The position numbers and the translations under genes are program-made. 8,323 nucleotides of DNA from Bacillota bacterium (GTDB taxonomy: Bacteria > Bacillota > Bacilli > Alicyclobacillales > SLC66), in assembly GCA_021797415.1 (NCBI GenBank), contig JAJZZT010000388.1:1-8323 (forward strand). Direction: 5' to 3'. This document shows positions 1,061 through 7,249 of the stretch, piece after piece (position 1 is the stretch's first letter; every line of letters starts with the position of its first letter). A model generated the notes under the pieces. It was not told where the DNA came from. It did not search any database and saw only the letters and a program-made list of their open reading frames with translations.

Positions 1061-1138
1061 AGCGGTTAAGCGCCCTATTCTGGGATCGTGCCGTGCGTCC
1101 CCGGTGCTGGCCTGAGACTGGCTTGGGAGTTGAACGCC

Positions 1139-2482
1139 GTGAGAACGAGATACGGCATACTGGCCGCCATCCTGTGCGGCGCTTTTGCGGGGAATATGGA
1201 GGCTGTGATGCCCAATGCGGCACTCTCTCGCATGCTGATTGCGCTGCATGCCACCGTGGCGGGCGGAACGTGGATTCTGACGATCTACACGCTGCTTTTC
1301 GCGGTGACGATGCCGGCGTTCGGTACTGCGGGGGACAGAGTCGGCCATGAGCGCCTCTACGTGTGGAGTCTGGTTACATTCTCCATAACAATGATATTTT
1401 CCGGACTTTCTCGCACGCTGTTGGAACTCATCGTGTGGAGAGCGCTGGCCGGAATATCCATCGCGCCATCCCTGCCTGCGGCCATGGCCATTGCATCGAA
1501 ACACTTTCCCGCGAAGGAGCGGGGCAAGGCGATGGGTATTCTCGGGATGGCGATCGCGGCCTCAACCGCCATCGGTGTGCCGGTCGGCGGTATCATCGGA
1601 CAATACGCAGGGTGGCCGGCGGTGTTTTACGCGGGAATTCCCGTGGCTCTCATCGGAATTGTGCTCAGTCTCATCGTTTTACCGAAGGGTGAGCGCCGCA
1701 AAGCGAGCGGGCGATTTGACTTTTTCGGCATGGTATATTTTACGGCGGGATCTATCTGCCTGATGTTCATTCTGACCATGAGTTCTGCAGCCAACTGGAG
1801 GACTCCCGCGATTTGGATCGTCCTGCTGTGCGCCGTCGGCAGCGCGGTTGCCTTTGTTGTCGCGGAACAGCGGAGTGCCGAACCTTTTTTGCCGTTGCGC
1901 CTGTTTCGCGCGGCCCCCTTTATGGCTGTCTCTCTGATTCGGGCGCTGCAAATGGCCGTTTTGTATGGCGTCCTGTTCCTGCTGCCGCTGTACTGGGAAC
2001 AAGTCAGGCGCGAGGCGGCGAGCAGCGCGGGGCTGGGCTTGCTGATTCTGCCGCTCGTCATCATGATCGCTGCGCCTGTTGCGGGGCAACTCACCGATCG
2101 ATGGGGCAGCAGAACCCTGGTTGTGGTCGGCATGTTTGCAACCGCGCTGGGATCGTGCGGCTTGCTGATCAATTTTGGCGGCGTCGGGAACCCCTTGATG
2201 CTGGCGAGTATGGTTGTCCTCGGGGCGGGATTTGGCTTTGTCCAGTCAGCCTCCATGACGGCAGCGACGCTTTTGCTGCCGCGGGACAGGTTTGGGGTGG
2301 GGCTTGGGGTGTTCAACATGCTGACATTTGTCGGTGGGACAATGGGGCTGGCACTGTTTGGATCGCTGACGATTTCCGCCGGGTTTCGCGCTGACTACGC
2401 TGTGATGACAGCGGCGGGGCTGACGGGCGCCATATTGGCTCTGGCCTTCTTGCGCAACGGATTCATCCAAACGGACCAGTAA
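1139..2482 (+). CDS. MFS multidrug-type efflux transporter (DHA2/EmrB-QacA-like)
   Basis: This integral membrane protein of about 447 residues has many hydrophobic helices and fits the 14-TM drug:proton antiporter branch of the major facilitator superfamily. The first helix ends in GNMEAVMPNAAL, resembling the LD-x-T-(I/V)-V-N-x-A-L-P region of that branch. Motif A is GTAGDRVGHERL (about residues 62-73), between helices 2 and 3. The antiporter motif C region is GVPVGGIIGQYAGW (about 146-159). GTG 1139 is preferred because GGGAG at 1125-1129 lies 9 bases upstream and translation then begins MRTRYG just before the first helix. In-frame alternatives are GTG 1088 and TTG 1130. It probably shares a transcript with the SDR gene, so the pair could modify and export a toxic compound; this is inference, and the substrate cannot be read from the sequence. 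Confidence 0.88.
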   Translation: MRTRYGILAAILCGAFAGNMEAVMPNAALSRMLIALHATVAGGTWILTIYTLLFAVTMPAFGTAGDRVGHERLYVWSLVTFSITMIFSGLSRTLLELIVWRALAGISIAPSLPAAMAIASKHFPAKERGKAMGILGMAIAASTAIGVPVGGIIGQYAGWPAVFYAGIPVALIGIVLSLIVLPKGERRKASGRFDFFGMVYFTAGSICLMFILTMSSAANWRTPAIWIVLLCAVGSAVAFVVAEQRSAEPFLPLRLFRAAPFMAVSLIRALQMAVLYGVLFLLPLYWEQVRREAASSAGLGLLILPLVIMIAAPVAGQLTDRWGSRTLVVVGMFATALGSCGLLINFGGVGNPLMLASMVVLGAGFGFVQSASMTAATLLLPRDRFGVGLGVFNMLTFVGGTMGLALFGSLTISAGFRADYAVMTAAGLTGAILALAFLRNGFIQTDQ

Positions 2483-3134: not shown

Positions 3135-3181
3135 TGCACGATGCGCGTGCTGGGGCCGCCGAATCATCCATCGGGCGGTTG

Positions 3182-3400
3182 TCAAAAATGAGAGCCGACG
3201 GCTGGGCACAGCAATCGGCTCTCATTGACTTTTAACACGGCATGCGCAATGCGTTCCTTCACATCGTCCGCCATGGACGATCCAGGATTGCCCGGCATCT
3301 CGCCGAACGTCAGGCGAAAGGCGACCTTCGCGGCGAACACTTCCTCGTAGAAACGGATTGCTTCCCTCGTGGTTCCATCCATCGTCAGATAAAATGACAA
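3182..3400 (-). pseudogene. Truncated VOC-superfamily (PhnB/YjdN-like) protein
   Basis: The minus-strand frame encodes about 72 residues. The first 55 or so look like the N-terminal half of PhnB-type VOC proteins: FYLTMDGTTREAIRFYEEVF, then a segment with TFGEMPGNP, then ERIAHAVLKV. Family members are usually around 130-150 residues. Family-like sequence stops after LKV, and the remaining residues (NESRLLCPAVGSHF) are encoded by the two arms and loop of the hairpin at 3187-3226, ending in TGA at 3184-3182. The second half of the fold, with the rest of the metal or ligand site, is absent. The start is also doubtful: the frame begins at TTG with no good ribosome site, while AAGGATAGG lies where a start at an ATT codon (about 3412) would be expected. 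I read it as a remnant. Confidence 0.7.
3187..3226. terminator. Hairpin, probable bidirectional terminator
   Basis: AATGAGAGCCGA (3187-3198) and TCGGCTCTCATT (3215-3226) form a perfect 12-bp stem with a 16-base loop. On the minus strand the stem is followed by T residues (CTCATTTTTGAC); on the plus strand by TTGACTTTTAAC. It begins 52 bases after the DoxX stop and could end that transcript. The loop is longer than in most intrinsic terminators and the stem is only half GC, so function is likely but not certain. Confidence 0.55.
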
Positions 3401-3574: not shown

Positions 3575-4669
3575 ATGAAGTGCATCCCTGATTCCTCCGG
3601 CAGCGGCGAATCCGCTTTGAGTCCGGTCACGCATTGTCCGTTTTGCAGTGTTCAGTGTGCGTTGCGCCGAAGTGCGTCCGGCCACACCCTGCGACCCGTT
3701 CAGACGCATACCGTCGCTCGCGGAAAAACATGCCGGAAAGGGCAGATGTCCGCCGGCGCTGTTGCAGTGGAGCGGCGCATCAGACGGGCGCTTCTGCGGA
3801 CATCCGACGGTCTTGTTCCGGTTTCGACGGAACGCGCGCTTCGTCATGCGGCGCGTTCCGTCGCGCAACTGCAGGCGCTGTACGGCCGCGAGACGGTGGG
3901 AGTGTACGGGAGCGGCGCATTGTTGAACGAGGAGGCATACCTGCTTGGAAAGTTTGCGCGCGTGGCGTTGCGCACGCCGTACATTGACTACAATGGCCGC
4001 TACTGTATGGCTTCGGCCGCGTATGCCATGAACGCCGCTTTTGGACTTGACCGCGGTCTGCCGTTTCCCGCCGAGGATATTGCAGACGCGGAATTTGTGC
4101 TGTTGCTTGGCGCCAATCTGGCGGAGTGCCAGCCGACGCTTGTGCAGTACCTCGTCCAGATGCGCAAACGCGGAGGCAGGCTGACGGTGGTCGATCCGCG
4201 CCGGACGCGCACGGCGGACCTGGCGGATGAGCATCTGGCCATCGCGCCCGGAGCGGACCGCCAAGGACTCGTTCTCGGTCTCGTTGGCGCGGGCAATACC
4301 GGGACGCTGCTGGCTACTTTTTTTGCCGGACGGATTGCGCAGGCGGCGAGATGGCATGCGGATTTTGGCATCGCATTGATCCCGATGGCCGTCGTGCTGT
4401 TGCTGTTGATCTTTGTGGCGAAGGAGGCTCCGACACGAAGCGGAGCGGGCGGGCTGGGCGGTTTTTTCCTGCCCATCATTCTCGGATACGCCAAGGCGAC
4501 GCTGGGTCATTACCAGGTGGGATTTGCCGTGCTGGCGGGCGTTTCAGCCATCGCGCTGACGGTGATTGTGCGCGTCCGCGCAAGGTGGATGGCACAGTCG
4601 TCTGTGTTCGCGGCGCTCCTGGATACGCGCCGGGATGATTTGTTCGAACAGGAGAGTCAGGCCCAATGA
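3575..4669 (+). pseudogene. In-frame chimera: nitrate reductase N-terminus joined to two fragments of a NarK/NasA-type nitrate transporter
   Basis: This open frame of 364 codons has three parts. Residues about 1-236 match the start of an assimilatory/NapA-like molybdopterin nitrate reductase: a [4Fe-4S] motif C21-x2-C24-x3-C28-x24-C53, the segment IDYNGRYCMASA (137-148) with the Mo-ligand-type C144, the MGD-binding GANLAECQPT (179-188), and VVDPRRTRTADLADEHLAIA then PGAD (205-228). Such enzymes usually run to about 700 residues, so two thirds is missing. From G238 the sequence becomes transporter-like: GAGNTGTLLATFF and two helices to VAKEAPTR (288). It then jumps to AGGLGGFFLPIILG (291-304) and the last helices. 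In NarK-type proteins these blocks are separated by roughly 150 residues. The product could neither reduce nor transport nitrate. ATG 3575 has GGGAG 10 bases upstream. Two in-frame joins without a stop suggest recent deletions, or an assembly error. Confidence 0.8.
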
Positions 4670-6365: not shown

Positions 6366-6406
6366 GAAGACATTTTCAAGACATCCTATTTGCGGGAGTG
6401 ATACAG

Positions 6407-7249
6407 ATGAATACGGCCGTACTGCTGGTCGGACATGGAACTAAAAACCCCGCCGGCCGCGCAGAGTTCATGGCGTTCGCCGATCTCGCCGCCCACCGCC
6501 TGCGGCGTCTGCAAGCCGGTCGCTCCTTGCTCATATCGCCCGTATACCTCGAACTGGCGGAACCCGGTATCGCGGCGGGCGTCGCATCGTGCCTTTCTCG
6601 CGGTGTCTCCCGGATCGTGGTCGTTCCCCTGATGCTCTTTGCCGCCGGCCATGTGAAGCGGGATATCCCGGATGCGGTGCACACTGCGGCCGCCGCTGCG
6701 ACGGGATGCCGCGTGGAGTTTCTCGACGCGGTAGAGGCCGATGAGGTGTTCGCCAGAGTGGCCTTGGCGCGTCTTGTCGAAAGCGGCTATCGCGTTCAAT
6801 CGCGCGCAAAACAGGCCGTCGTATTTGTGACGCGCGGCAGCCGGGACGTGGAGGCACAGCGCAAGCGAGCGGCGTTCGCCGCGTTGTTGCAGCGCATCGC
6901 GGGCGCGACGCACCTGCACGCATGCGGCCTCACAGGCGGCGGACCGTCTCTGGAGGACGCGCTTGCGCAGTGTGAAGCGGTGGGACAGCAAGAAATATTT
7001 TTAATTCCTTATTTATTGTTTCACGGTGCATTGACTGCGGAGACGGTCAAACGCGCTTTTGCGTGGCAGTCTTCCTCTTCCGGCGCAAAGGCTCATATTG
7101 CCGTCGCCCGCCACCTTGGGCCGGATCCGCAACTTGCGTGGCGCTTGGCGGACCGGATAGCAGGGCGGCTGTGGCGGTCTCAGGGTAGGCGTCGCAGTTT
7201 GTCCGCGATCGGCGTGCGCGCCTTCGCCTCGGGCACTTCCAGCGGATAA
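6407..7249 (+). CDS. sirB: Sirohydrochlorin ferrochelatase, two-domain SirB/CbiX type
   Basis: This protein of about 280 residues contains two CbiX-like domains (about 1-125 and 135-255), as in long SirB/CbiX enzymes that insert a divalent metal (Fe2+ for siroheme) into sirohydrochlorin. The first domain carries the metal-site histidines: LLVGHGTKNP with H10 and LFAAGHVKRDIP with H82, and also PVYLEL with E49. The second keeps the RGS-x-D motif (R143-D147) and LFHG (H206). ATG 6407 is preferred because GGGAG at 6394-6398 lies 8 bases upstream. Its place after nirA suggests it provides siroheme for the nitrite reductase; without other cobalamin genes nearby, iron is the likelier metal. The last 23 or so residues are rich in R, S and G, look unlike the family, and are encoded opposite the end of the nitroreductase gene, so the stop may have been acquired by read-through. 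CbiX (cobalt) remains an alternative. Confidence 0.85.
   Translation: MNTAVLLVGHGTKNPAGRAEFMAFADLAAHRLRRLQAGRSLLISPVYLELAEPGIAAGVASCLSRGVSRIVVVPLMLFAAGHVKRDIPDAVHTAAAAATGCRVEFLDAVEADEVFARVALARLVESGYRVQSRAKQAVVFVTRGSRDVEAQRKRAAFAALLQRIAGATHLHACGLTGGGPSLEDALAQCEAVGQQEIFLIPYLLFHGALTAETVKRAFAWQSSSSGAKAHIAVARHLGPDPQLAWRLADRIAGRLWRSQGRRRSLSAIGVRAFASGTSSG

Follow-up and report, generated by a model that had tools for sequence, protein, structure and literature searches.

A probable remnant of nasC and narK left by two recent deletions upstream of nirA in a Bacillota bacterium

How a single open frame comes to join part of a nitrate reductase to parts of a nitrate transporter, and whether such a frame encodes a working protein, are the questions raised by positions 3575-4669 (+ strand) of a Bacillota bacterium contig (GenBank JAJZZT010000388.1), within the 8,323-nucleotide stretch analysed here and referred to as the window. 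A first-pass annotation, made from the letters and translations without database searches, had described this region as a reductase/transporter chimera kept open over 1.1 kb, and the frame does run from an ATG at 3575 to a TGA at 4667-4669 over 364 codons with zero internal stops. Its composition was confirmed as a cut-down NasC joined to two NarK-type transporter pieces that are not contiguous in the parent: the NasC profile NF047855 (positions 23-244 of 708) matches residues 19-236 (E 8.8e-71; 239.1 bits), the NarK profile TIGR00886 (positions 123-195 of 368) matches residues 229-288 (E 2.7e-5; 23.4 bits), and the C-terminal transporter piece, invisible to profiles, is clear in alignment with the intact NarK protein P0002. 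Both scores fall below the curated cut-offs (1100 and 311.7 bits, respectively), and the only Pfam matches are PF04879 (Fe4S4, residues 19-60) and positions 2-164 of the 353 of PF00384 (residues 69-229). Judged from these sequence comparisons, the family matches of the pieces are far beyond chance; a chance open frame was ruled out by the NasC and NarK profile matches together with the parent alignments, and read-through of two adjacent unrelated genes by the sharing of one frame among all pieces. The best reading of the frame is that nasC and narK, upstream of nirA, were recently reduced to a remnant by two deletions; to this we assign a probability of about 0.72.

Intact parents in close relatives, as expected for a remnant derived by deletion, are present. 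The whole-frame protein search returned 503 proteins at E up to 0.001 from 7993 scored candidates, the best 120 of which were examined; its length rule excludes full-length NasC, and a second search scored residues 1-232 inside a longer window reading. The fusion itself (P0001, on a contig of 15,531 bases) is the sole member of its 90% cluster, and the next best match after it is P0002 (416 aa, on a contig of 3650 bases); the second search yielded P0121, an intact NasC of 735 aa on a contig of 2915 bases, with PF00384 and PF01568 both present and complete. Fusion residues 1-228 are identical to P0121 at 228 of 228 positions, substantiating the N-terminal [4Fe-4S]/Mo-cofactor segment proposed from the sequence. 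Residues 226-290 agree with P0002 132-196 at 60 of 65 positions (226-253 being fully identical to 132-159) and residues 291-364 with P0002 343-416 at 72 of 74, so that both NarK pieces together are ∼95% identical (132/139). With 228 of 735 NasC and 139 of 416 NarK residues remaining, about two thirds of each parent has been lost, as had been estimated from family knowledge. The next full-length NasC after P0121, P0122, has 64% identity over the matched part, and among the best 120 matches listed for P0002 one other NarK exceeds 50% identity (P0231, 74%); among named Bacilli relatives, the NasC of Kyrpidia tusciae reaches 54% and the NarK of Fodinisporobacter ferrooxydans 47%, and the host probably belongs to an uncultured lineage related to such Bacilli. 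P0121 and P0002 lie on different contigs and may stem from different strains; the difference between 100% identity to the NasC parent and 95% to the NarK parent counts against the deletion reading.

The two joins can be placed closely in protein alignment (Table 1). At join 1 the intact NasC reads PGAD-VWLL, the intact NarK YGAD-RQGL and the fusion PGAD-RQGL; because the fusion equals P0002 132-159 from residue 226 onwards and P0121 departs after residue 228, the join falls within 4250-4258. The first-pass annotation had recognised the central NarK fragment correctly, an identity borne out by TIGR00886 and the alignment to P0002, and had set its start at 4286 with GGCGCGGGC as the homology at the join; both parent alignments move the join about 28-36 nt upstream, which leaves that motif inside the transporter piece. 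At join 2 the intact NarK has RSGKGGEA around the left break point and GEAGGLGG around the right one, where the fusion has RSGAGGLGG, in agreement with the earlier placing of this break, and of the C-terminal transporter fragment that follows it, at about 4445. The earlier description is therefore right in substance and off by about 30 bases at join 1. In the protein alignment the two parent ends have GAD in common at the first join and GG at the second. Any direct repeat at join 1 would be about 10 nt at most, and the repeat lengths at both joins are upper bounds because the intact narK and nasC DNA of the strain itself was not found.

Table 1. Coordinates, strand and basis of assignment for the fusion frame and neighbouring features in the window
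Feature	Position	Strand	Basis
VOC/PhnB-type frame, 72 codons	3182-3400	-	aligns with about residues 4-64 of VOC/PhnB-type proteins
nasC remnant, codons 1-228	3575-4258	+	identical to intact P0121 1-228; [4Fe-4S] segment and first half of molybdopterin oxidoreductase domain
Join 1, codons 226-228 (G-A-D)	4250-4258	+	common to P0121 226-228 and P0002 132-134; DNA GGAGCGGAC (GGA GCG GAC)
narK remnant, middle piece, codons 229-290	4259-4444	+	equals P0002 135-196; TIGR00886 match
Join 2, codons 291-293 (A-G-G)	4445-4453 (about)	+	P0002: KGG left (197-199), AGG right (343-345)
narK remnant, C-terminal piece and stop, codons 291-364	4445-4669	+	equals P0002 343-416
nirA, ferredoxin-nitrite reductase type, apparently complete, 501 codons	4714-6219	+	two PF01077 and two PF03460 stretches
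CbiX-type chelatase gene	6398-7249	+	PF01903, E 1.6e-35

The product is like NasC in residues 1-228, in which the four [4Fe-4S] cysteines (C21, C24, C28 and C53) and the Mo-ligand C144 are retained, all invariant in a four-sequence alignment; C144 aligns with a residue printed x in 9t1s, presumably a selenocysteine. It differs from P0121 in lacking codons 229-735, and with them the C-terminal molybdopterin-dinucleotide domain (PF01568) and the second half of PF00384, which is cut at position 164. From the NarK/NasA family (TIGR00886; P0002; E. coli NarK, 4u4t/4jr9) it keeps P0002 132-196 and 343-416 with the GAGNTG and GGLGGFF motifs, the middle piece presumably corresponding, by the TM numbering of E. 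coli NarK, to the region around TM5-TM6, and it differs in lacking P0002 1-131 and 197-342. Both R66 and R264 of P0002, arginine in 120/120 NarK sequences and aligned to E. coli NarK (4u4t) positions 89 and 305, fall in these deleted stretches, leaving the fusion without either. We take the E. coli arginines to have a role in nitrate binding; a literature search on such a role of NarK arginines found nothing. As judged from these alignments, the product would keep its cysteines but would lack both a complete cofactor-binding fold and a substrate site. Two strongly hydrophobic stretches lie at residues 260-287 and 313-336, and a single-sequence structure model of P0001 (mean pLDDT 41.8) is uninformative either way.

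Among the seven differences from P0002 in the NarK pieces, only R259 is unseen among the 120 NarK sequences, of which 118 have glycine at this position, two serine and none arginine; it may be strain variation predating the deletions, if the parents are different strains. Codon-position GC of the fusion pieces resembles that of the neighbours (third positions 0.65-0.73, compared with 0.69-0.77). With the frame open and the composition neighbour-like, the deletions and R259 are the only signs of decay.

That both joins keep the frame had been pointed out in the first-pass annotation. The fact holds but is unremarkable: of the 554 maximal direct repeats 8 nt or longer in the six + strand genes/frames of the window, 303 share codon phase, in a count that takes in the fusion frame itself and repeats inside one gene. 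At other minimum lengths the same-phase counts are 3074/6620 (6 nt), 964/1917 (7 nt), 95/174 (9 nt), 23/50 (10 nt), 7/12 (11 nt) and 2/5 (12 nt), that is, 46-58% for minima of 6 to 11 nt. If two repeat-mediated deletions arose independently, the frame would survive both in roughly 20-30% of cases, and any special meaning of the double in-frame join is ruled out by these counts. The open frame can be accounted for without invoking selection, because in-frame joins are common and stops would be absent through recency.

The recent double-deletion reading starts from an operon nasC-narK-nirA. One deletion would have run from nasC codon 228 to narK codon 134, taking 507 nasC codons with their stop, whatever spacer followed and the initial 131-134 codons of narK; the other would have removed 146 codons inside narK (P0002 197-342); each pair of ends sits on two or three shared residues, making very short direct repeats, acting through slippage or recombination, the likely route, with the frame kept at both joins by chance. 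Identity to P0121 at all 228 residues, when the next NasC, P0122, reaches only 64%, argues for a recent event, and recency would in turn explain why no stops have accumulated. Since a complete cofactor-binding fold and a substrate site both appear to be missing, nitrate uptake and reduction by the locus have probably been lost, while the downstream nirA looks complete. Fused remnants born of deletion are known in bacteria, where adjacent same-strand genes are joined in frame as the DNA between short shared words is lost; the present fusion differs from this general kind in nothing essential, with a second in-frame deletion ∼190 bases on, and unless it is a chimera it represents an ordinary kind of gene loss. 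It would then offer a clean snapshot of the loss of an assimilation operon, in which reductase and transporter go first and nirA is still apparently complete, and would illustrate that even >1 kb of frame without a stop gives weak evidence of a working gene where short repeats share codon phase.

The main competitor, an assembly or amplification chimera in which a genome with an intact operon had its pieces misjoined (for example, in amplified single-cell DNA or a strain mixture), is unlikely while still deserving some weight: an intact protein with the same 228 residues (P0121) sits on another contig, and the two joins within 200 bases have a third cut-short gene beside them, making three within 1.3 kb on one contig of 15,531 bases. 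However, the stretches shared at the joins are at most ∼10 nt, and since short-read assembler word lengths exceed this, assembly by itself is unlikely to have produced the two joins; further, residue 259 and the six other differences indicate that the NarK pieces are not simple copies of P0002. Were the fusion a chimera after all, it would stand as a warning against trusting such frames.

A real new protein, membrane-tethered and carrying an Fe-S cluster, its frame kept by selection, would accord with the openness of all 364 codons, the retained Fe-S cysteines and C144, and the two hydrophobic stretches, but is very improbable given the break inside the molybdopterin domain, the frequency with which in-frame joins are expected, and the G-to-R change at a nearly invariant NarK position (259). 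Full-length homologues of the same fusion in several species, which the first-pass annotation had named as the mark of a real protein, were likewise sought: no second fusion occurs among the best 120 of the 503 whole-frame matches and 0/348 fetched proteins match both halves, and a conserved natural fusion was set aside on these grounds. Even less probable is a very young gene, in which the two in-frame deletions would have made out of reductase and transporter a membrane-anchored Fe-S protein already expressed and used, for instance to carry electrons for the adjacent nitrite reductase. The earlier preference for decay over a functional Fe-S protein is thus upheld, as intact parents exist and both have lost needed parts. 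The least probable explanation considered is a shortened extra copy decaying beside intact nasC and narK elsewhere in the genome; the intact P0121, identical at 228/228 residues on its contig of 2915 bases (from the same genome or another), would fit, but nirA and the cbiX-type gene directly follow the remnant, as expected of the original operon. A literature search found no description of such a fusion in the material it covered, which is no proof of absence in print.

The ancestral order of the recent double-deletion reading, reductase, transporter, nirA, is implied by the order in the window together with NasC/NarK pairs of relatives. In one relative P0122 (NasC) and P0231 (NarK) each derive from a contig of 18572 bases, and in Tumebacillus sp. 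DT12 P0184 (NasC) and P0304 (NarK) each derive from a contig of 840243 bases, which suggests that NasC and NarK share one contig in those relatives, in whichever order. Plasmid protein searches returned relatives all below 60% identity, and a plasmid DNA search matched 7 records at 60-80% identity, each over less than 80% of the query. The order nasC-narK-nirA is absent from the four plasmid regions read (L007-L010): L007 has reductase and nirB opposite in orientation to the transporter; L009 has the order transporter, nirB, nirD, reductase, cobA; L008 is a stretch without annotation; and L010 places a nitrite/sulfite reductase within a sulfate cluster. Viral contigs scanned with P0121 and P0002 contained no relative. 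A genome-contig scan with nirA found one distant locus (L001, 4342 bases, from a Nitrospiraceae MAG), on which no frame of 120 aa or longer is a nasC or narK, and a NasC search of the L001 genome gave five partial matches, none above cut-off. The ORF at 2737-3735 of L001, presumably formate/nitrite transporter-like, sits immediately ahead of a nirA that has 52% identity to that of the window.

The ATG of the window's nirA was chosen to match the start of this relative (MNKIEELK); a 517-codon reading scores 513.4 bits with NF007125, under the cut-off of 594. The CbiX-type chelatase downstream is a possible siroheme partner of nirA. On the other side of the fusion, the VOC/PhnB-type frame is related to proteins in 24 plasmid records (best 49% identity) and to the 153-residue PhnB 5kef (E 0.0023), with PF00903 matched only at E 0.19; it looks like a gene lacking its C-terminal half, and thus a third cut-short gene within 1.3 kb. 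Rfam and tRNA searches of the window returned no match and no tRNA, respectively; upstream promoter-like sites (two, compared with 0.8 expected) and terminator-like sites (one, compared with 2.0 expected) were not used as evidence. A hairpin at 3180-3232 (-31.1 kcal/mol; shuffles mean -11.0, z -7.8), between a DoxX-type gene and the cut-short VOC frame, is perhaps a terminator. Further upstream, positions 1088-2482 (+) encode an efflux-type MFS transporter (DHA2/EmrB), whose TIGR00711 score of 205.3 bits falls short of the 230.2 cut-off, and a 47-base tandem repeat (2.4 copies, 98% matches) occupies 97-209, upstream of an SDR gene.
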